Part shown: piece after piece, positions 2,252 to 11,129 of the stretch | How positions within the stretch are numbered: the first letter of the stretch is position 1 | Layout: every line of letters starts with the position of its first letter | NCBI RefSeq assembly: GCF_009363255.1 | Contig: NZ_CP045318.1 | Coordinates: 1,092,001 to 1,156,000 of the forward strand | Origin: Roseivivax sp. THAF197b | GTDB lineage: Bacteria; Pseudomonadota; Alphaproteobacteria; Rhodobacterales; Rhodobacteraceae | Length of the DNA stretch: 64,000 bases | Direction of reading: 5' to 3' | Program-made: the position numbers and the translations under genes | The notes under the pieces: generated by a model | What the model was told of the DNA's origin: nothing | The model's input: the letters and a program-made list of their open reading frames with translations, nothing else | The model's database searches: none

Positions 2252-2450
2252 GGGGTCGCTCCTGTTGTCTCTGGCCCGATGCTCTGGGGCCGTTCGCGCT
2301 AACATGAGGCGCCATGCTGCAGGTGCAAGGTGAAAGCGGGAGATTGGCTTAAAATCGCACTGCCGCAGGCCGGGATTTCGCGGGAGCCGCAGGGCAGGCG
2401 CCCCAGCCCGTGCGTCCCGCCCCGGACATGCGGCCCCGGTGCACAGAGTG

Positions 2451-3113
2451 TCAGCCGGAAGGCTTATCGCCGAACACATCCTCGAAGCTGCGCCGCAGCG
2501 CCACATCCACGTCGTCCATCGTCACGGGCAATCCGAGATCGACCAGGCTGGTGACGCCGTAATCGGTGATGCCGCAGGGCACGATACCGTCGAAATGGCT
2601 CAGATCCGGCTCGACGTTGATCGACACACCGTGAAAGCTCACCCAGCGGCGCAGGCGGATGCCGATGGCGGCGATCTTGTCTTCCGCCATGGCGCCCGTG
2701 GCGAGACGAGGCCGGTCAGGCCGCTCGATCCAGACGCCCACGCGCCCCTCCCGGATATGTCCGGTCAGTCCGAACTCGCCGAGGGCCGCAATCACCCAGG
2801 CCTCGAGATCGCCCACGAAGCGCCGCACATCGCGCCCCCTGCGGCTGACATCGAGCATGGTATAGGCCACCCGCTGTCCCGGCCCGTGATAGGTGTATTG
2901 CCCGCCGCGCTTGGTGACATGCACCGGGAATCGGTCGGGATCCTTGAGATCCGCGCGCTGCGCCGATGTGCCCGCCGTGTAGAGCGGCGGATGCTCCACC
3001 AGCCAGATCAGCTCATCCGCCGTGCCTTCCGCAATGGCCGCCGCGCGGTCTTCCATGACCTGCACGGCCTCCGCGTAATCGGTCAATCCGTCCGAGATGC
3101 GCCATTCCACCAT
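2451..3113 (-). CDS. lipB: Octanoyl-[ACP]:protein octanoyltransferase
   Basis: LipB moves the octanoyl group from acyl carrier protein to lipoate-dependent enzyme domains, the first step of lipoate synthesis. It is 220 residues long, as usual for the family. Visible motifs are [12 protein letters not shown] (about residues 69-80), catalytic Lys146 in [18 protein letters not shown], and the catalytic Cys180 in IVPCGI. I chose the ATG at 3113 (MVEWRIS) because AAGGAGG lies 5 nt upstream; longer readings run back into the tRNA-Leu region. It is monocistronic here and reads away from tRNA-Leu. Confidence 0.95.
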
Positions 3114-3254
3114 GGTCGCCTCCTTGCCGTGTCCTGCCGCTCTTACCCTGACGCGCGGGGTGAGGAAAGTCGCCGTTTTCAACCTGTTCTGCGGGGGAAA
3201 AGCCGTCCGGCCCGTACTGATTTCAGGCGACGAAAAAAATCGCGACATTCCCCC

Positions 3255-3283
3255 TTCACAAGCTGAAAAGCGTCCTCTATACG
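3255..3283 (+). promoter_or_regulatory. Predicted promoter of tRNA-Leu(GAG)
   Basis: TTCACA at 3255-3260 and TATACG at 3278-3283 are separated by 17 bases, which puts the transcription start near 3290, seventeen bases before the tRNA. Position 3290 is also exactly where the 109-bp direct repeat begins. The promoter is therefore outside the repeat, and the second tRNA copy lacks it. Confidence 0.5.
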
Positions 3284-3289
3284 CACGCC

Positions 3290-3398
3290 ACCAAGCCTCA
3301 GACAGTGCGGTCGTGGCGGAATTGGTAGACGCGCAGCGTTGAGGTCGCTGTGGGGTAACTCCCGTGGAAGTTCGAGTCTTCTCGACCGCACCATTCAC
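3290..3398 (+). repeat. Left direct repeat (attL) with complete tRNA-Leu
   Basis: 109 bases identical to 11021-11129, from ACCAAGCCTCAG through the tRNA to CACCATTCAC. It covers a 17-base leader, the whole tRNA with CCA, and five bases after it. Sequences diverge immediately on both sides, as expected for recombination products. Confidence 0.9.
3307..3393 (+). tRNA. tRNA-Leu(GAG), left copy
   Basis: An 87-base cloverleaf including an encoded CCA end. The acceptor stem GCGGTCG pairs with CGACCGC. The anticodon arm is CAGCG-TTGAGGT-CGCTG with anticodon GAG, and there is a long variable arm as expected for leucine (class II) tRNAs. The T arm contains GTTCGAGTC. It has a plausible promoter at 3255-3283, so this is probably the expressed copy. 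Its 3' end is 53 bases before the integrase start. Confidence 0.95.
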
Positions 3399-3446
3399 CT
3401 AAAAATCAAGGACTTGCTCTCCCATCTGTAAGGGAGAAAAAGACCT

Positions 3447-4673
3447 GTGACCCGTACACTTCCCAAAGGTATCTTCAAGCGTAACGGCGTGTACGCTGTG
3501 CGTTTCAGCGTTCCAACCGAGGCTCAGTCCGTGGTTGGAAAGAAGGAGATCGTCCGATCACTCGGCACTCGGGACCTAGGTGAAGCCCTAGCCAGAAGCC
3601 CTGAGGTCCTCTCGGATATCAGAGAGAATTTGTTCAGCGCCAAGGTAGAGAAGCCTCAAGTGCACTGTAGGGTGTCCTCAGGTTCGACCGTGAGGGAGAC
3701 AGCCCATCGCTGGCTGAGCGAAAGTGACGGAATTAATAACTCCACCCGCGCTCGCTATCGAAGCATCCTCGCGCGGTTCGAGGAATACTCGGGAAACTGT
3801 GATGTGTCCCAGATTAAGCGTGAGATGGCTTTGGGCTTCATGGACCATCTCAGGGCAACTCCCTCTCCCAAGACAGGGCAACCGCTCTCGCATCGAAGCC
3901 TGTCCATCCATCAAATCTGCCTCGCCTCCTACTGGCGCGTCCTAGAGCACTGGGGGCTTGTCGATGGTGACATGAAGAACCCGTTCTCTTCTCTCCTTCG
4001 TCGCCTTGCAGGGCAGAAGAAGAAGACAGACCCGAGGAAGAAGAACCTGCGTCCGGTGACCCGTGAAGAGGCCGAAGCCTTGTTGGCCTTCATCGAACGT
4101 AACCAACGCCTCAAGTATCAGTTCGAGATGAGCGTGACCGTAAGGTTACTTTGGGTGACCGCCTGTCGCCTCGGGGAGATCGCAGGGCTTTCTCTGGGCA
4201 ACATTGACGACCGGGGCGACCATATCCGGCTGAACATCACGGGAGCCAAGACAGAGGCCGGGAACCGGAAGGTGATGGTCGTCGGGCAGGATGATTGTGA
4301 GTTACTCCGAGCAGCAATCCGCCGCGCTCAGGTGACCGAGCCAGCTTGTCCCGATAATCGCGGTCTACTGTTCCCGAGGCTGCTCAGAGGCGGATACGAC
4401 AGGACGCCGGGGCATTATCTCGGGAAGGCGTTGGAGAACGCTAGGAAGACCTTGGACATGCAATCGGGTGAGTGGGACATGCATTCCTTTCGTAGGACCG
4501 GGGTTTCCGCGCTGGTCAACGCCGGGGTTGCCAAGGAAGCGCGGAACCTTGCGGTGGGCCACTCGAACAAGGACGATATTGGCATGTCAGTCTATGCAAA
4601 GCGGGGCGACCTGAGCGAGGTCATAAAGGCGACCTTTGAGGCGCTCTACGGTGAACTTGGGGGGAGCCTGTAA
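3447..4673 (+). CDS. int: Tyrosine recombinase (integrase) of the tRNA-Leu element
   Basis: A 408-residue phage-type integrase that should catalyse site-specific integration and excision at the tRNA-Leu repeats. The catalytic residues are in place: Arg241 in TACRLGEIAG, His345 and Arg348 in HSFRRT, His371 in VGHSNKDD and nucleophile Tyr382 in MSVYAKR. A SAM-like N-terminal core-binding domain spans about residues 80-190. The start is GTG at 3447 with AGGGAG about 10 nt upstream. It lies directly downstream of the tRNA in the same direction, so read-through from the tRNA promoter may contribute to its expression. Confidence 0.93.
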   Translation: MTRTLPKGIFKRNGVYAVRFSVPTEAQSVVGKKEIVRSLGTRDLGEALARSPEVLSDIRENLFSAKVEKPQVHCRVSSGSTVRETAHRWLSESDGINNSTRARYRSILARFEEYSGNCDVSQIKREMALGFMDHLRATPSPKTGQPLSHRSLSIHQICLASYWRVLEHWGLVDGDMKNPFSSLLRRLAGQKKKTDPRKKNLRPVTREEAEALLAFIERNQRLKYQFEMSVTVRLLWVTACRLGEIAGLSLGNIDDRGDHIRLNITGAKTEAGNRKVMVVGQDDCELLRAAIRRAQVTEPACPDNRGLLFPRLLRGGYDRTPGHYLGKALENARKTLDMQSGEWDMHSFRRTGVSALVNAGVAKEARNLAVGHSNKDDIGMSVYAKRGDLSEVIKATFEALYGELGGSL

Positions 4674-4945
4674 TGCTGAGCGTAGGCAGTCTCACCCCGG
4701 CACAAGCAATCCATGAGCGTATCTGTCTTCTGTATCTAATGCTCACGGATAACCGCAGTGAACTTCTGGTCACCGACTGGGGCATAGAGACAGGGTGGGG
4801 TCTGAACCGTCTTCATACCTCGGAATGCCCTGAGGGACGCGAGGGATTGTTCAAGCAGCTTGCGGATGCTCTGTGGGCCTATGAGGAAATCACAGGGCGG
4901 GAGGATCATCCTGTGGGTGAGAAGTTGGACGATATCGATTTCTAA
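4673..4945 (+). CDS. Small protein translationally coupled to the integrase
   Basis: A 90-residue acidic protein whose ATG overlaps the integrase stop (TAATG at 4671-4675), so the two are probably translated from one message. I do not recognise a family. The sequence is mostly helical-looking, with QAIHERICLLYLMLTDN near the N-terminus and an acidic tail KLDDIDF. Its position next to int would suit an excisionase or a recombination accessory factor, but no helix-turn-helix is evident and that role is only a guess. Confidence 0.6.
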   Translation: MLSVGSLTPAQAIHERICLLYLMLTDNRSELLVTDWGIETGWGLNRLHTSECPEGREGLFKQLADALWAYEEITGREDHPVGEKLDDIDF

Positions 4946-5029
4946 GCTGTTGTGTCCGTATCCACTGTTGACCTGATGGCTGGCGTAACGCACAGCAAGT
5001 CATGATTGTGAATCCCTTACTACACGGAG

Positions 5030-5926
5030 ATGATTTTGAGTTATCTAGAGTATCCTGCGCGTACGCATAAACAACTCTATGTTGGACTTGAGGAAAACTC
5101 AGGGGATAACGAACGAACACGAAGCCGATTAATAGCGGTCTTCATTTCTTTTTCCGAGAACAGGACTCATAAAGTAGCGAAAAATATTGAGGCTGAAATT
5201 GGTATTTATCCAGGCTCACTTAGAGTTGCGAGTGACGTTCGGAAGTTCATGAGATCATTGGAGTGGGGAGATTTTCTCGACGTTCTAGGTGAACTGTATC
5301 ATACGATTAAGGCGGAGATTGTTGTTGGACCCCGTGGAGATGTAGCTAGACGAGAATTGGGTCAATATTTAGCTATGGTGAATCGTGTATTCGGGGAGCA
5401 GAAAGCGCGACTGGTCTTAAAGAATGATGGGATAATACACCCGAAGTATGATATGGCATTTGATCAGCAGAGGATGGCGCTGATACGAGGATTAGATTTA
5501 GATTCGTATGAGGCTGCGCGTTTGCATGTTGAGGCTTGTGAGGCGGCGCTTCTGAAGGACCCGGTAGATGGTTCTCAGGCAATTCGTAGTATTTTCCTCG
5601 CATCAGAGAATATCTTCAAGCAATTGGGCCGAAAACCACGCTTGGGGGTTGGAGAGGCAAGGGATTTATTATCGCCGATACTTGAAAATATGTATCCAGA
5701 AAAAACTAATGGCCTTAGGGCTTCCCTACGTATCCTGAAAAGCTTTGGGGAATGGATCGATGCGGCCCATTTTTACCGCCACGAAGAGGGTAAGCCTGAA
5801 CCTTCCCAGCCAACCGAAGAACTTGGTCTCCTTCTCGTAACCCAAGGGTTTTCATTCACACGATGGTTGGTCGATATCCACCAGTTTCAAATTCATAACG
5901 CCCAGTTTTCTGGAGAAAATTCGTAG
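5030..5926 (+). CDS. Candidate abortive-infection-type (HEPN-like) cargo protein
   Basis: A 298-residue cytoplasmic protein, markedly AT-richer than its neighbours, hence probably acquired separately. The C-terminal half (about residues 155-290) has the layout of Abi_C-like/HEPN domains: a helical stretch with VEACEAALLKDPVDGSQAIR, then LRASLRILKSFGEW and a charged turn HFYRHEEG, where HEPN RNases place R/H residues. Such genes are common phage-defence cargo of satellites; the function is inferred. Start choice is uncertain: ATG at 5030 touches the Shine-Dalgarno CGGAG, while TTG at 5036 has it at a normal 6-nt distance. Confidence 0.6.
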   Translation: MILSYLEYPARTHKQLYVGLEENSGDNERTRSRLIAVFISFSENRTHKVAKNIEAEIGIYPGSLRVASDVRKFMRSLEWGDFLDVLGELYHTIKAEIVVGPRGDVARRELGQYLAMVNRVFGEQKARLVLKNDGIIHPKYDMAFDQQRMALIRGLDLDSYEAARLHVEACEAALLKDPVDGSQAIRSIFLASENIFKQLGRKPRLGVGEARDLLSPILENMYPEKTNGLRASLRILKSFGEWIDAAHFYRHEEGKPEPSQPTEELGLLLVTQGFSFTRWLVDIHQFQIHNAQFSGENS

Positions 5927-6160
5927 AGGTATATCGTAGTCTCGCGATACCCCCTCCCCCCGTACCCCCTAGGGAAACCCAAGGTAGACCCTAGGAATAT
6001 CTCACGCGACCTAGCCTAACCATTTGCTTCTCTCGCTGCCGACACGAAAACGCTTGGGCTCTAGCTGGTTCGATCATAGTTACTCGCAGTGAACGCAGGG
6101 ATAACAGTAGGTTAGCGCGGGGAGCGTTAGGGTTCTGTACGGGTTTCGCTCGGTCATCCG

Positions 6161-6183
6161 TTAAACCACACCATATGGAGATA
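6161..6183 (+). promoter_or_regulatory. Phage RNA polymerase promoter-like motif P1
   Basis: A 23-base motif, TTAAACCACACC followed by ATATGGAGATA. Placed without gaps on the 23-base T7 class III promoter it matches at 14 positions, including the TAT and GGAGA-like initiation region. The last 12 bases and the next 13 (6172-6196) recur exactly at 6498-6522. It is suggested as a start site for a helper-phage single-subunit RNA polymerase; no such polymerase is encoded here. Confidence 0.45.
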
Positions 6184-6253
6184 ACACACACGCTACTGTC
6201 TTGGGACTTGCTCTCTTGAGGCCCGGAAAGCCCGGCTAAACACGTGTTATCCA

Positions 6254-6276
6254 TTAAACCCCTCCATATGGAGATA
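6254..6276 (+). promoter_or_regulatory. Phage RNA polymerase promoter-like motif P2
   Basis: TTAAACCCCTCC followed by ATATGGAGATA, 93 bases downstream of P1. Taken with the preceding A and compared with the T3 promoter, which has the same ATTAA...CC...GGAGA order, I count 16 matches in 22 positions. It contains the self-complementary block CTCCATATGGAG, so a protein operator is the main alternative. Confidence 0.45.
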
Positions 6277-6477
6277 CACGCCTCGTCCTGCCCGATGGTG
6301 CCCGAGGTGGACAACCGCTCACCAGCGTCCCTTACAGCGAGGCTGTGGAGCATCTCGGACAAGAGTTCGAGGAAGGTGTTCAGACACATGACATTTGCGA
6401 CATTTCCGGTAAGGGCGGAAGCTGCGGCATCTGATCGACACAAGACAAGGAAGGGGGGCTTTAGGGCCTCCCTTTTT
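6270..6477 (+). ncRNA. Possible small non-coding RNA between P2 and a terminator
   Basis: If P2 is a start site, transcription from about 6270 would end at the strong terminator at 6451-6477, giving an RNA of about 200 bases with no good ribosome-binding site plus ORF. The only ORF across it (TTG at 6244) runs through the terminator and is not credible. This is inferred from promoter-like and terminator sequences alone. Confidence 0.3.
6451..6477 (+). terminator. Rho-independent terminator
   Basis: A 9-bp stem AAGGGGGGC / GCCTCCCTT with one G-T pair and a loop of about six bases, followed directly by TTT, then GTCG and TTTTT. It separates the P1-P2 pair from the P3-P4 pair. Confidence 0.75.
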
Positions 6478-6484
6478 GTCGTTT

Positions 6485-6509
6485 TTAATTATGTCTGCAT
6501 ATGGAGATA
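6485..6509 (+). promoter_or_regulatory. Phage RNA polymerase promoter-like motif P3
   Basis: TTAATTATGTCTGC followed by ATATGGAGATA. Its downstream half (6498-6522) is a 25-base exact repeat of the one at P1. It lies eight bases after the terminator's first T-run. The upstream half differs from the other three copies, so it may be a weaker or distinct site. Confidence 0.4.
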
Positions 6510-6578
6510 ACACACACGCTACCGTTCTAGGCGTTGCCCTGCCTAGCTGCTGAAAGTCCAGCAAAATAGGGGCAAAAT

Positions 6579-6601
6579 TTAAACCCCCTCATCTGGAGAT
6601 A
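6579..6601 (+). promoter_or_regulatory. Phage RNA polymerase promoter-like motif P4
   Basis: TTAAACCCCCTC followed by ATCTGGAGATA, then ACACGC as in P2. It is 92 bases after P3, the same spacing as P1 to P2. It differs from P2 at two positions over 28 bases. It is the last such motif before the gene run starting at 6764 and could drive it. Confidence 0.42.
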
Positions 6602-6763
6602 CACGCGCGTCAGACTCACCCAAGGTCCCCTGCGTTTTCTCAGGCGTCCTCACGTATTTTCTCCCGACTACCCAGACCATTTTCAGTCGCTTCAAGCGGC
6701 CCCAAACTCATTCCCTCAAGTTAATGCCGCGCACGACAGTGCGTAGTTAAGAGGTTTTTCATC

Positions 6764-6931
6764 ATGTCCATGTACGAAGCCAGCTTGCTCACAACCGATC
6801 CCAAGACCGGAGCAACTCATCTCGACCGATTGTTCACTATGCCAGCCAGAAGCGCCGCCCACGTTAAGGCCAGGGTGGAGGCTCTAGGTCTGTCTAAGAC
6901 CAACTCTGAATTGCTCGTTTACCGTTTCTGA
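6764..6931 (+). CDS. Small 55-residue protein of the element
   Basis: A short ORF starting MSMYEASLLTTDPKTGATHL and ending SKTNSELLVYRF. It is preceded by AGAGG about 9 nt before the ATG and is the first reading frame after the P4 motif. I recognise no family. The C-terminal half is basic and amphipathic (ARSAAHVKARVEALGLS), which could be a DNA-binding or partner-binding helix. Support is the ribosome-binding site, its position and clean spacing to the next gene; coding status is likely but unproven. Confidence 0.5.
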   Translation: MSMYEASLLTTDPKTGATHLDRLFTMPARSAAHVKARVEALGLSKTNSELLVYRF

Positions 6932-6963
6932 GCGTCCATACTTTTGAAAGTGAATATCCAGCA

Positions 6964-7575
6964 TTGAAATACGAAGTTATCGAGCCGGACGCGGGGAGTT
7001 CTGTTTCTCCGCCAACGCAATTAATTTGCCCGAATTGCGGTATCCTATTCATCTACCGAAGCAATAAGACTTACTGCTCACCTCGCTGCCGCGATGCTGC
7101 AAAGAAGCGCAAGGCTAGACGTAAGACACCCGTTAACGCTAGCTACAGTTACGCCAAAGACAGACAGCAACACGAGAAGTTTGAACTCGCTGAGCGCATG
7201 GCTGAACGGCTTTATTCAATACCTCCTGCGCTCCGACTCGGGTATCTCGAAACCGTCATCAGGCTGGCCCGTGATGGTCACAGCCCAATGGTGCGCGATA
7301 TTCTAACCACCCCTCAGTTGATCCGCCCCAACCCAAAAAACCGCTATTTATTCTACCGGGGTCGTCCCTCTGTCTACTGCACGATTGCCCAAGCCGCTAA
7401 TCGCTATACCGTTTGGTCTCCTTGGAGCGCCACTATTGATCGTGTCGTTCGAGGTTTGATCCCTGAGCCGTCAACTGGGCTTGTCTCGGATGACGGTACC
7501 GTCGATGACGCTGGTCCGGGGTTCAAGGCTTGTACCCACCTGCAATTACCAAAACCGGGGACACCCCTTCTATAG
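6964..7575 (+). CDS. Zinc-ribbon protein of the element
   Basis: A 203-residue protein with an N-terminal zinc ribbon: Cys22, Cys25, Cys38 and Cys42 (CPNC ... YCSPRC), followed by the basic run KKRKARRK. This points to nucleic-acid binding. The rest (YSIPPALRLGYLETVIRLA and beyond) is not recognisable. The start is a TTG at 6964 because no in-frame ATG precedes the zinc ribbon; the ribosome-binding site is weak. The stop lies inside the first of two 26-base repeats (7551-7576). A regulatory or DNA-processing role is a reasonable but open guess. Confidence 0.65.
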   Translation: MKYEVIEPDAGSSVSPPTQLICPNCGILFIYRSNKTYCSPRCRDAAKKRKARRKTPVNASYSYAKDRQQHEKFELAERMAERLYSIPPALRLGYLETVIRLARDGHSPMVRDILTTPQLIRPNPKNRYLFYRGRPSVYCTIAQAANRYTVWSPWSATIDRVVRGLIPEPSTGLVSDDGTVDDAGPGFKACTHLQLPKPGTPLL

Positions 7576-7624
7576 ACAGCATGGTCTGGTCTCAGGTCAA
7601 AACCGGGGACACCCCCTCTATAGA
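7551..7624 (+). repeat. Pair of 26-base direct repeats ending in CTATAGA
   Basis: Copies at 7551-7576 and 7599-7624 differ at one base. Each reads AAAACCGGGGACACCCC and ends in TCTATAGA. The spacing is 48 bases. They lie between the zinc-ribbon gene and the HNH gene, overlapping the end of the former. The CTATAGA end resembles the core of T7/SP6-class promoters, so they may be a second promoter class or a protein-binding pair. Confidence 0.6.
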
Positions 7625-7777
7625 ACCGACAGACGAAACCTTGTCATCACCAAGGTGAAGACGAAGGTACAATCGTTGGCACCGCCGAGAAGACCGAGTG
7701 CCACAATAGGCCAGACCAAAGGCCCAACTCCTATCATCAATTTCTGATGACCATCCAACTACAACGAAAGCATTCAA

Positions 7778-8374
7778 ATGATGAATAAAACCGACCAACT
7801 ACTACGCCCAGAGAACCTAGATTTCCTCAGGGCTTGCTTCGATGCAACCAAGATCGACAAAGGCCTCCTCTACTGGAAAGAGCGCCCCCGTCACCACTTC
7901 AAATCGAAGCGTAATCAGACCAACTTCAACAACCAATACGCGGGAACTCTTGTCGGCAAGAATCCTTGTCTTAAAATGCCACATATTATCCTCGGGGTAA
8001 CTCATCCTGACTTAGGTCCGGTCCGAGTGATGCTTCATCGCCTTATCTGGCTTCTCAAATATGAAGAAGCCCCGCCCAAATTGATTGACCACATTAATCG
8101 TATCCCCTTCGATAATCGTCCCAGTAATCTCAAAGCGGCAACACCTCGGGAGAACATGGAAAACCGAATGTATAGCACGGGCTGCACCAGCTACGGCGAT
8201 ATTCAGAAAACGGAGGAAGGGAATTTCCGTGTCTCGTTCTTCTCGTCCAAGGGGGAGCCAGAGTTCAACCTAGAGTTCTCCAGTGAACTGTTAGCGACTA
8301 CGGCAATCAATTACCTCTCGTTCCTCTACGATAGGCGCTACGATGTAGCGGACGGGTCGGGCTGTGGTTCATAG
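7778..8374 (+). CDS. HNH homing-type endonuclease
   Basis: A 198-residue protein with the HNH_3-type nuclease core: MLHRLIWLLKY with His87, then LIDHINRIPFDNRPSNLKAAT containing Asp104-His105, Asn107 and the conserved Asn of PSNL, then NMENR. Proteins of this type are frequent in T7-like phages, where small HNH genes are scattered between structural genes. The start is ATG at 7778 (a second ATG follows at once). It overlaps the next gene by 11 bases, so the two are probably one operon. It may cut helper DNA or serve DNA processing. Confidence 0.8.
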   Translation: MMNKTDQLLRPENLDFLRACFDATKIDKGLLYWKERPRHHFKSKRNQTNFNNQYAGTLVGKNPCLKMPHIILGVTHPDLGPVRVMLHRLIWLLKYEEAPPKLIDHINRIPFDNRPSNLKAATPRENMENRMYSTGCTSYGDIQKTEEGNFRVSFFSSKGEPEFNLEFSSELLATTAINYLSFLYDRRYDVADGSGCGS

Positions 8375-9281
8375 GTCTCAGACTGGCCTTCCGAAATCCA
8401 AGCGCCAAGGGAAAGACTCAAGACAACGCGAGAAGCGTTCCATTGAAGTTCGGCAAGCCAAGAGAGCAAACAAAGCGGAGGTCTGTGCGGTCTCGGGATG
8501 CGCTATTCATCGACATGATTTGTACCCCTACTGCTACAGCCATGCTCAGCGATATCGGCGCTTCGGTCACCCCACCAATGAAATACCAAAACTGGCGGAC
8601 CTGAGGGCACTAGAGGAAGCCCTAAAGCAGTGGCTGGATACCGACCTCCTGACCAATGACCACCAGCGACAAGCCTTCAAGGCCGCTTGGGGTTCAGGGC
8701 AAAGGAAGATACGACACCATGCCTCCTACGCTCTCCCGTTCTATCGCCTCGAAGGCGTCTCAGGGTACACCCAGAAGGCCAAAGGCTGGATTATCCTGTC
8801 ACATTACTTCCACCGCCAAGGGCACTCTCTGTCCGACGCTATGTTGCGCTACATGGCCATCAGACTGTGGGCAGAGTTCAAATGGAAGATGCCCGAGGGA
8901 AGCCGCAAAGGCTTCACCAAGGAACGGGATCAATTCGTAAATACCTTGGCAGGGCGTTTCGTTCTGGCGAACTCGGGGTTCACCAAGACCACCACCGAGG
9001 AAAAGGTGATCGCTTGGGAGCGCCCTTGGTACATCTCGGAGAACCCGAGGGACAATCTCTCTCAACCCATTACCGAGACAATCACGAAGACCAAACAGCT
9101 AGACCTCTGGCGGTCTGCCACTCTTGTACGCGCAATCGGAGACGAACTCCGCTTGGCAGTAAAACACGCAATGGGGAGCGATTGGCTCTCCGACTATCGC
9201 CTTCTCGTAAAGGCCACCGAGGCCCTCGGTCTCCCGCTAGGCGGAGACAGCCTCACCAAACATTTTCAGAAAGAACATTAA
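8364..9281 (+). CDS. Zinc-knuckle protein of the element
   Basis: A 305-residue protein starting with GTG at 8364 inside the end of the HNH gene. A very basic N-terminus (SKRQGKDSRQREKR) leads into a zinc knuckle, Cys41-X4-Cys46-X10-Cys57-X2-His60, continuing RYRRFGHP. This form occurs in phage HNH-associated and DNA-binding proteins. The remainder is helical and rich in aromatics (KGWIILSHYFHRQG). No nuclease or helicase motif is visible. It is probably a nucleic-acid-binding replication or packaging factor of the element; that is inference from the motif only. Confidence 0.65.
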   Translation: MVHRSQTGLPKSKRQGKDSRQREKRSIEVRQAKRANKAEVCAVSGCAIHRHDLYPYCYSHAQRYRRFGHPTNEIPKLADLRALEEALKQWLDTDLLTNDHQRQAFKAAWGSGQRKIRHHASYALPFYRLEGVSGYTQKAKGWIILSHYFHRQGHSLSDAMLRYMAIRLWAEFKWKMPEGSRKGFTKERDQFVNTLAGRFVLANSGFTKTTTEEKVIAWERPWYISENPRDNLSQPITETITKTKQLDLWRSATLVRAIGDELRLAVKHAMGSDWLSDYRLLVKATEALGLPLGGDSLTKHFQKEH

Positions 9282-9284
9282 TCA

Positions 9285-10082
9285 ATGACCAACGCAATCG
9301 ACGCCAACGGCAACGCCGTTCCTACCTACTCCGACGATCTCACCGAAGGTAATGATCTCGGGTTCACCGCGCGGGACTACTCGGCAGAGAAGGTCGCCAA
9401 GGGACACTACTCCGTTGCGAATACGTATCTCTCGGATGAGGAAACCAACAACAATCCTGAGGTTGTCATTCGAGACGGTTCACGCCAGCACTCTAACGGC
9501 GAATACCTTCCGGGCGATCTCGTAGTGATTGAAGGCATGGAGGTCGCATACGATCAGGCTGTGTCCCTCGGGTTAATCAAGGGACAGACCCTGAGCAATC
9601 CCTCGGACGACTTCCTGTCTGACGCCGAGAATGCCCGAGCCGAACTTCAAGAGGCCCAGCAGGACAACCGCCATGAAGCCGCTCAGTTACTCGAAGCGCA
9701 ACTTGAGGTCGCAGTAGGCGAGGGCAATGCTGATGCCGCCTTGTCGGCCTTCCAGAATGATATCGTGTACAACGGTGAACTTGGGGCAGAGACATTTGCG
9801 TTCGCCCAGGACAAGCTGGGTATGTCGGAAGCTTCGGTTCGCCAGAGGTACGCTGACATGGAAGAGGCAGGGTCCCAAGTCCTGTCCGATTTTATGGCGG
9901 TAGGCGACGAATACGGTGAAGCGCGTATGGACTTCCTCGCAGACAAGGCTTGGAACGGGACTCAGCAAGAGCAAGCGATTGTTCGCAACCTCTGGTTCAT
10001 GGCCGCGACGGGGAAGCTGACCCAGAAAGACGCTGCTGAGGCTTACAGCTACCTCTACTCGCCCTACGGTCAGAAGGCGTAA
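9285..10082 (+). CDS. Acidic helical protein, weakly like a T7-type scaffold
   Basis: A 265-residue, strongly acidic protein without Cys-rich or membrane segments. The N-terminal 90 residues are Asp/Asn-rich (TYSDDLTEGNDLGFTA). A helical middle (ARAELQEAQQDNRHEAAQLL) leads to ELGAETFAFAQDKLGMSEAS, which lines up loosely with ELSAESYAKLAEIGYTKAF of the T7 gp9 scaffold as I remember it. Acidity, helicity and position just before a small-terminase-like gene support a capsid-assembly role. The resemblance is faint and needs a profile search. Confidence 0.5.
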   Translation: MTNAIDANGNAVPTYSDDLTEGNDLGFTARDYSAEKVAKGHYSVANTYLSDEETNNNPEVVIRDGSRQHSNGEYLPGDLVVIEGMEVAYDQAVSLGLIKGQTLSNPSDDFLSDAENARAELQEAQQDNRHEAAQLLEAQLEVAVGEGNADAALSAFQNDIVYNGELGAETFAFAQDKLGMSEASVRQRYADMEEAGSQVLSDFMAVGDEYGEARMDFLADKAWNGTQQEQAIVRNLWFMAATGKLTQKDAAEAYSYLYSPYGQKA

Positions 10083-10087
10083 CCCGC

Positions 10088-10348
10088 ATGGCTCAACGCA
10101 AGACCACGAAGATCGAAGCGCCCAGAGACCTCAATGCTACCCGAGAGGACCTAGAGAAACTCAATGGCCTTCTCATCCGCGCTTTGATCGCAAAGCTTGA
10201 GAACAACGAAGCTTCGGCAACTGACATTGGCAATGCTGTCAAAGTCGTCACGGCGAACCGAGTACAACCTGTTGAACCCGAGGGACCCCATGCGTTCGCC
10301 GGAGTAATCCCGGCTGACCAACTGGACTTCCCGGTAGACGTAGGCTGA
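10088..10348 (+). CDS. Small protein, possible T7 gp18-like small terminase
   Basis: 86 residues, close to the 89 of T7 gp18. The core LNGLLIRALIAKLENNEASATD followed by NAVKVVTANRVQP has the pattern of small packaging subunits of T7-type phages: two short helices with a Leu/Ala face, then a basic NRV-type turn. It starts 5 bases after the preceding stop, so the two are co-translated. A satellite-coded small terminase could redirect the helper's large terminase. The assignment is tentative. Confidence 0.45.
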   Translation: MAQRKTTKIEAPRDLNATREDLEKLNGLLIRALIAKLENNEASATDIGNAVKVVTANRVQPVEPEGPHAFAGVIPADQLDFPVDVG

Positions 10349-10422
10349 CCCGCAACGCCTTCGGAGGGGAGGGGGACAAACGCTCTCCTTCCTCGACCAT
10401 CATCATTTTTTAAGGATCATAT

Positions 10423-10911
10423 ATGAGCGAATTTCTTATGGACCCTGAGGGCCACGGAGAGGACTCCTCAGAGCCTCTTGAGGTTACGGAGGTGCCGACA
10501 CGAAAGAAAGCCCAGCCTGCACTCAGTGACTCTCTCCGGGCCGCTGTGAGCCAGCCCAGCCCGATCATTCTTGGATCAGCTTTATTTGACGAAGCGGCCA
10601 AGGCTTACCTGAGACGCCACGAGAGCAGGAATGAGGCAGACCGGATGGGCCATTTGTTTGTAGAGGTCGATGGCAGAATGCGCTTCCTCTATCGTGATCG
10701 CGAGGCCCGTGCTTGGCATCTCTTCCAAGACCTGAACGGCCTGTGCTTCCCCTGCGTCAAAACTGATGCCGAAAAGCGTTCTCTAAAAGACGGCTTCCGG
10801 CGTGGATGGGAGAGCGGAGAACTGGCTTTCCTTGCTTCGGTCAAGTCCGAGGAACTCGAAGACTACCGACAACGCTTGGCAGGGGGCTCGGAGGCTCACC
10901 CTGACATGTAA
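10423..10911 (+). CDS. Unknown protein at the right end of the element
   Basis: A 162-residue protein beginning MSEFLMDPEGHGEDSSEP, with an acidic first 25 residues and a compact remainder containing FDEAAKAYLRRHESRNEADR and FLYRDREARAWHLFQDLNG. I do not recognise a family; it has no membrane or signal segments. It is the last gene before the right repeat and is separated from the previous one by a 74-base spacer with AAGGA before the ATG. It could equally be cargo. Confidence 0.6.
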   Translation: MSEFLMDPEGHGEDSSEPLEVTEVPTRKKAQPALSDSLRAAVSQPSPIILGSALFDEAAKAYLRRHESRNEADRMGHLFVEVDGRMRFLYRDREARAWHLFQDLNGLCFPCVKTDAEKRSLKDGFRRGWESGELAFLASVKSEELEDYRQRLAGGSEAHPDM

Positions 10912-11020: not shown

Positions 11021-11129
11021 ACCAAGCCTCAGACAGTGCGGTCGTGGCGGAATTGGTAGACGCGCAGCGTTGAGGTCGCTGTGGGGTAACTCCCGTGGAA
11101 GTTCGAGTCTTCTCGACCGCACCATTCAC
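11021..11129 (+). repeat. Right direct repeat (attR) with complete tRNA-Leu
   Basis: Exact 109-base copy of 3290-3398. The sequence to its left is element DNA and the sequence to its right is chromosomal. Unlike most tRNA-targeted elements, which restore only the 3' end, the whole tRNA and its leader are present on both sides. Confidence 0.9.
11038..11124 (+). tRNA. tRNA-Leu(GAG), right copy
   Basis: Base-for-base identical to the tRNA at 3307-3393, including the CCA end and the GAG anticodon. The native promoter at 3255-3283 is not duplicated, so transcription would need element-derived signals; TTGACA at about 10915 is too far upstream to be a confident promoter. It is intact in sequence, and expression is uncertain. 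Confidence 0.9.

Follow-up and report, generated by a model that had tools for sequence, protein, structure and literature searches.

A 7.7-kb integrative element with T7-class promoter-like motifs that looks like a satellite of T7-like phages

Phage satellites of the PICI/SaPI and cf-PICI types carry an integrase, att sites and their own small terminase, which redirects packaging, and PICIs are induced by de-repression. In satellite P4 with its helper P2, the satellite promoters are activated by a transcription factor of the helper. The element described here has an integrase, att sites and a relative of the small terminase in common with PICI/SaPI and cf-PICI, but its proposed induction runs through the promoter code of a helper polymerase and not through de-repression. 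It also differs from P4, where the helper supplies an activator of the host polymerase, while for the present element a single-subunit polymerase of the helper is proposed. According to the text of PMC10803314, the helpers of PICIs and cf-PICIs are temperate phages, and PICMIs are Vibrionaceae satellites that depend on virulent marine phages and have three core genes, which serve excision and replication. The present element is like a PICMI in being small, marine and presumably dependent on a virulent helper, and the defence gene that PMC10803314 describes for PICMIs is paralleled by defence genes in several sibling elements found here. As a difference, the term "small terminase" is absent from the main text of PMC10803314, while the present element encodes a relative of this protein. 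Charybdis elements, portrayed in PMC12324425 as 4.6 kb long and tied to archaea, did not fit. In the literature on T7-like phage satellites and phage-polymerase promoters, at the level of titles and abstract openings and with few subscription papers covered, no such satellite was found.

Within the window, by which the whole analysed stretch of 64,000 nucleotides is meant, a 7,731-bp (7.7-kb) stretch is a complete integrative element, a parasite of a bacterium related to the marine roseobacters. The element is flanked by two 109-bp direct repeats on the forward strand that are 100% identical and lie 7,731 bp apart. The left repeat (3290..3398) is the attachment site and contains a tRNA-Leu(GAG) gene at 3307-3393, and the right repeat (11021..11129) contains tRNA-Leu(GAG) at 11038-11124. 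These two tRNAs were the sole matches in an Rfam scan. All described genes, from the integrase to the last gene, are read rightward on the forward strand. A tyrosine integrase (3447..4673), identified in the family scans by DUF6538 and PF00589, is followed by two ORFs of 90 and 298 aa of unknown function (4673..5926), which occupy a slot holding anti-phage genes in several siblings. The first ORF 3' of the promoter-like array encodes 55 aa (6764..6931) and had no family above cut-off; by eye, a similar ORF stands 3' of the motifs in the sibling L006. It is followed by a zinc-finger protein (6964..7575) with weak NinG/HNH similarity below cut-off, an HNH_3 endonuclease (7778..8374; family scans), a satellite-conserved protein of unknown function (8364..9281, the 8364 protein), a second satellite-conserved protein with a weak scaffolding match (9285..10082, the 9285 protein), a relative of the small terminase or T7-type DNA maturase A (10088..10348; PF11123 and profile comparisons) and a last gene of unknown function for which one homologue was found (10423..10911). 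As expected of a phage satellite, the element combines site-specific integration by its own integrase with a packaging gene, and among the ten element proteins scanned none had a confident match to a capsid, portal, tail or large-terminase family. The sole tail match was weak (E 0.064) and fell on the small-terminase relative itself. The 8364 protein was found in 5 of 390 genomes of the host's order, its own included, in 3 of 54 genomes of one genus, and in 1 of 9 genomes of its own genus, which was the genome of the window. The 9285 protein was found in 4 of 394 genomes of the host's family, again counting its own.

Since its genes include both an integrase and a protein related to the small terminase of T7-like phages, the element looks like a satellite of such phages. 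The match of the small-terminase relative to Pfam PF11123 (E 9e-4) stayed below the curated cut-off, and that to the terminase small subunit of PHROG was no better than E 0.058. The profile of this protein matched roseophage DNA maturase A at E 1e-5 with 82% probability. When 57 families from eleven T7-like phages were compared, DNA maturase A again came first (E 1.6e-5, 79% probability), far ahead of the runner-up (E 0.055). A tblastn search of the small terminase against phage records gave no match, and IMG/VR searches with the 8364 protein, with the small terminase and with the small-terminase alignment A1 yielded no relatives. Solved structures yielded no useful relative, the small terminase matching one designed repeat protein (E 2e-4). 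For the 9285 protein, the head scaffolding protein was the best among the 57 T7-like phage families, but the match was weak (probability 5%). The possible kinship to a scaffold is taken as a lead only, and such a protein might resize the capsid of the helper. The 9285 protein and the T7-like scaffolding protein share NG.L..F, MG and V..Y..M.

The leader of the element contains four promoter-like copies in two pairs, all on the forward strand, which the preliminary description had already seen and which were confirmed by a window scan, shuffles and a whole-genome count. The pattern ATMTGGAGATA, or AT(A/C)TGGAGATA, occurs exactly four times in the window, at 6173, 6266, 6499 and 6591, all in the same orientation (0.01 in shuffles). 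The sequence CATATGGAGATA has three occurrences in the 4.24-Mb genome, all within the element, with 0 for the reversed control. Each copy ends in GAGATA, whose first G is the proposed +1. Copy 1 (6161..6183) has TTAAACCACACCATATG before this G at 6178, copy 2 (6254..6276) has TTAAACCCCTCCATATG before 6271, copy 3 (6487..6509) has AATTATGTCTGCATATG before 6504 and copy 4 (6579..6601) has TTAAACCCCCTCATCTG before 6596. The 25 contiguous identical bases reported for copies 1 and 3 were found again, while copies 2 and 4, said to agree at 26 of 28 bases, agreed at 25 of 28 ungapped. The spacing within the two pairs was equal as described (92-93), at 93 and 92 between the ATATGG cores. Matches of copies 1 and 2 to the T7 promoter at 14 of 23 positions were also reproduced, but 15 window positions reach this score. 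The likeness of copy 2 to the T3 promoter, given earlier as 16 of 22, held in the form of 16 of 23 for both copies 1 and 2, which were the two best window positions with both strands counted. Copy 1 was in addition the best K11 match of the window (16/23), and copy 2 has CCCTC at -11 to -7, like the T3 promoter. When 24 promoter templates were used jointly, 27 of 127,958 positions scored as high as copies 1 and 2 or higher, so that resemblance alone is not decisive. No sigma-70-like site was found at 5900-7800 (1.4 in shuffles).

Sibling elements, reached through the homologues of the 8364 and 9285 proteins, were found in L005/L010 (Maritimibacter sp. 55A14, partial), L006, L007, L008 (Citreimonas salinaria), L009 (Tropicimonas sediminicola, partial), L229, L230 and L233, with the partial elements L011 and L231 left outside the comparison. 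In L006, L007 and L230, a direct repeat with a tRNA gene or tRNA end flanks the element on either side. No 9285 homologue was seen in the L008 element. Six of the seven elements with leader sequence carry the motif (window, L006, L008, L229, L230 and L233). With +1 set at the G after TATR, the sequences before this G were AATAAAAGTGTCATATA and AATAAACGTGCCATACG in L006, AATTAAGTGGCCATATA and AATAAACACCCCATATA in L229, AGTTAGGTTGCCATTAG and TAATAAAGCTGCATATG in L230, AATAAAAGCTTCATATG and AATAAACCCTTCATATG in L233, and TTAAAACCCTTCATATT in L008. Two further, worse-fitting copies in L230 were excluded from the counts. All 13 counted copies are oriented toward the downstream genes. A held-out profile built from 7 copies of four other satellites ranked window copies 3, 2, 1 and 4 at 1, 4, 11 and 30 of 127,966 positions, and the L008 copy was detected by a profile trained without L008 (score 17.3, next 6.9). 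The leader of L007 had no copy, its best profile match (12.6) lying inside an accessory gene. Across eleven copies, A at -13, C at -6, A at -5, T at -4 and G at +1 were invariant, and the variable columns -12 to -7 had 0.06-0.9 bits. These copies have the T7-class layout of an A/T-rich stretch at -17 to -13, a variable box at -12 to -7, CA-TATR and G at +1.

Ten Autographiviridae roseophages taken from PMC11092137 served as the comparison set, and their genomes were compared over full length. Repeated sites around the RNA polymerase genes read ATTAGGTTGCACCATAG in CRP-113, 125 and 171, AATTAGGTTGCACCTAAG in CRP-114, 227 and 361, TTAATCACCCTTACTAG or near it in CRP-118, 403 and 804 and, less surely, TGTGTCAAGTCTACGCTATACG in CRP-143. 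Many of the 52 IMG/VR polymerase loci examined (80 fetched) had their own repeats around the gene, and four polymerase-bearing stretches from genomes of the host's family had no recognisable promoter repeat. The satellite motifs are like the promoters of T7-like phages (T7, T3, SP6, K11; CRP-113/125/171, CRP-114/227/361) in layout and register, and the L230 box is identical. They differ from them in having several boxes per element and in reading (N)CA, with CA at -6/-5, where the ten tabulated phage promoters have CAC at -7 to -5. The repeats of certain T7-like phages (L204, L205 and CRP-118/403/804) likewise misfit CAC at -7 to -5, and the phage promoters also differ among themselves at -12 to -8.

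A profile trained on 12 roseophage and IMG/VR promoter variants of the GGTTGC type was run over 148,002 positions in nine satellite stretches. Rank 1 was a site on the other strand of L233 outside any promoter slot, but ranks 2 to 4 all fell in promoter slots, namely a site just 5' of the last gene in L233 (rank 2), copy 1 of L229 (rank 3) and copy 1 of L230 (rank 4). Of these four sites, two are counted motif copies. Placing two copies within the top 4, 10 or 20 was achieved by none of 1000 column-permuted profiles, and within the top 50 by 5 of 1000. In the register used here, copy 1 of L230 has the roseophage box GTTAGGTTGC at an equal distance from +1. Single promoter templates are weaker evidence than this phage-trained profile. 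In the scan of the satellite stretches, copy 1 of L229 matched SP6 at 13 of 18 (2 of 148,002 positions score at least as high) and K11 at 12 (21 positions); copy 2 of L229 and copy 2 of L233 matched T3 at 12 (33 positions), and window copies 1 and 2 and copy 2 of L230 matched T7 at 11 (132 positions). Eight other phage templates had no motif copy in their top 50. In L005, CTATAGGGAGA, the T7 sequence from -5 to +6, stands before the last gene. With profiles of three CRP promoter groups, window copy 1 ranked only 48-107 and the others lower, apart from copy 4, which reached rank 16 by the ARP-C profile. For the window's own boxes, IMG/VR exact-pattern scans and blastn gave no convincing phage carrier, with none or single chance-like matches among the matches listed. 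The IMG/VR follow-up, covering 80 sites of 98 stretches and 92 sites of at least 120 stretches, gave repeated sites for A/T-rich boxes only. The preliminary description would be refuted if no roseobacter podovirus had a matching promoter consensus, and this condition holds by half, as roseophage promoters matched the sibling satellites but not the copies of the window. The host genome had no match to a roseophage RNA polymerase; a PF00940 scan of the same genome also gave no match, and was not counted because its control was silent as well.

Overall, we put the probability at roughly three in four that the element is a phage satellite with T7-like (Autographiviridae-type) helpers and that the four motifs are T7-class promoters for the helper's single-subunit RNA polymerase. 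Transcription by a T7-like helper polymerase, as proposed at the outset, is supported in kind by the layout shared with promoters of single-subunit phage RNA polymerases, by the sibling copies found with the phage-trained profile, by the kinship of the small terminase, by the host genome having no roseophage-type polymerase match and by the absence of a sigma-70-like site. On the other side, the searches turned up no phage that carries the boxes of the window. The repeat, the element limits, the terminase kinship, the conservation of motif and orientation and the profile matches are observed; the +1 position and the following course of transcription, induction and packaging are inferred. In the uninfected cell the leader would be silent. 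Upon infection, the helper polymerase would start at the G after TATG, and the first promoter pair would yield a short RNA ending at the 6448-6477 terminator. The second pair would drive the 55-aa, zinc-finger, HNH, 8364, 9285 and small-terminase genes, with the TATAG motifs at 7550 and 7598 assisting transcription of the downstream genes. The small terminase would steer the packaging enzyme of the helper onto satellite DNA, and the parasite would thus wake when a T7-like virus attacks and travel in viral particles. If true, T7-like phages, a group abundant in the sea, would gain a further satellite family, and helper sensing would have a new form in which the satellite answers the promoter code of a phage polymerase alone. 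The box of each copy would then name the polymerase type of the helper, so that helpers could be found by sequence, and box changes in otherwise conserved leaders would be the traces of an arms race in which promoter specificity is contested.

An unlikely alternative is that the motifs are operators, partly palindromic sites (CTCCATATGGAG and similar) to which a dimeric regulator of the satellite binds to switch the element. Copy 2 contains a perfect 12-bp palindrome, and in 10 copies the box was complementary to +1..+6 at 28 of 60 positions (permutation P 0.002), which a regulator site would account for but a plain promoter would not. However, the 13 counted copies share one orientation, the A/T-rich half is one-sided, and the CAT|ATG symmetry is broken in 5 of 11 cores (CATATA in three, CATACG in one and CATCTG in one). 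Sibling sites were, moreover, found by phage promoter profiles. Improbable as well is an iteron function, in which the copies would belong to a replication origin, be bound by an initiator of the satellite and perhaps serve a phage polymerase too, as at the primary origins of T7. The copies are repeated, oriented and non-coding as iterons would be, but they are few and unevenly spaced, their boxes differ within one element, and they match phage promoters in register. Composition was no help to iterons, since the leader is not A/T-richer than the element (53.2% against 53.5% GC, with 62.5% for the window). It is highly improbable that the motifs are host promoters of the usual kind, or a leader sequence that was duplicated, and that phage polymerases play no part. 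Copies 1 and 3 do in part reflect a duplication, and single-copy resemblance is not decisive with 24 templates, but sigma-70-like sites are absent at 5900-7800, the motif recurs in most elements with a leader, and the held-out and phage-trained profiles gave the results above.

Under the helper-polymerase reading, the variation of the box at -12 to -7 between copies casts doubt on a single promoter code. In window copies 1 and 3 the box is identical at 1 of 6 positions and +2 to +16 at 15 of 15. In copies 1 and 2 of L230 the box agrees at 0 of 6 positions and the sequence after +1 at 28 of 33, and between L229 and L233 the values are 1 of 6 and 47 of 59, with an upstream flank that is conserved with a one-base gap (13 of 40 ungapped). 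The box ACCCTT recurs in L008 and L233, and GGTTGC in L230, L233 and the roseophages. With boxes that differ and a conserved sequence after +1, the array may be open to more than one helper polymerase. Tentatively, it might be a menu, with differing polymerase boxes before the same transcript start for several T7-like helpers, and boxes exchanged between satellites as polymerases diverge; the box changes are suggestive support for it.

Between the two promoter pairs the leader contains a C-terminal fragment of an adenosylcobalamin-type ribonucleotide reductase (6291..6434, forward strand) and, next to it, a strong intrinsic terminator (6448..6477, forward strand; 13 pairs, U-run, z -3.6). The fragment consists of the last 47 residues and the stop codon, with no start codon, and is 83% identical to roseophage CRP-3 and 77% to CRP-212. 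No other copy was found in the host genome below E 0.5, and the T7-like roseophages compared had no good match. As the fragment is closest to CRP-3 and CRP-212 and otherwise has no host counterpart, phage DNA has probably entered the leader, as far as these comparisons go. A T7-like donor is not indicated, because CRP-3 and CRP-212 gave neither a convincing match to a polymerase of the T7-like kind (the best had E 0.27) nor a class-A site in the 47,964 of 52,963 and 48,749 of 54,748 bases covered. The fragment points to phages that are not T7-like, which weakens the T7-like helper reading; reductase genes may, however, move between phages. In L229 (7488-7525) and in the minus-strand orthologue of L233, a hairpin was observed right after the first promoter, its pairing preserved by a compensatory change of GCCCGA/TCGGGC versus ACCCGA/TCGGGT.

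A second motif class is present at 7550..7624 on the forward strand as two copies of CAAAACCGGGGACACCCC(T/C)TCTATAGA, 48 bp apart, which are probable further promoters. An IMG/VR scan for a pattern of this class gave none or single chance-like matches. The class was observed in four satellites, at 7550-7624 in the window, 7067-7164 in L230, 9592-9955 in L006 and 343-643 in L009, in the forms GGGGACACCCC..CTATAGA, GGGACA..CCGTATAGA, GTCGACACCCTTAATAGGAGA and GTGGACACCCATAATAAGAGAGA. It sits 3' of the first class where the sequence covers both, and has a partial likeness to the CRP-804 promoter. The second-class copies of L230 also score with the first-class profile.

The anti-phage slot of the siblings lies just 5' of the leader; in L006, L007 and L230 the integrase stands on its other side. 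It holds a PD-T7-4 match in L006 (11895-12695), a PifA-like KAP NTPase and a GajA/Old-type ATPase in L233 (8526-12865), Mrr-type restriction in L230 (5770-6678), SIR2/NB-ARC in L229 (4133-7330) and the modification and specificity subunits of a type I RM system in L007 (2711-5957). In E. coli, T7 is a target of both PifA and PD-T7-4, so that these siblings speak for T7-like helpers. The 298-aa ORF of the window had no match to a PADLOC defence model. The anti-phage gene was seen to differ from sibling to sibling, and an ORC-CDC6-like ATPase was observed 5' of the leader in L008 from Citreimonas (2285-4381). In L007, an in-frame TGA was observed in the small-terminase-like frame (10380-10600), which suggests that this sibling, whose leader also has no promoter motif, may be decayed. 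Finally, for the homologues P0003, P0009, P0016, P0022, P0025, P0026, P0029, P0030 and P0031 the longest metagenome contig was 7.6-9.7 kb, approximately the size of the element, and these contigs are possibly packaged or circular satellite genomes.
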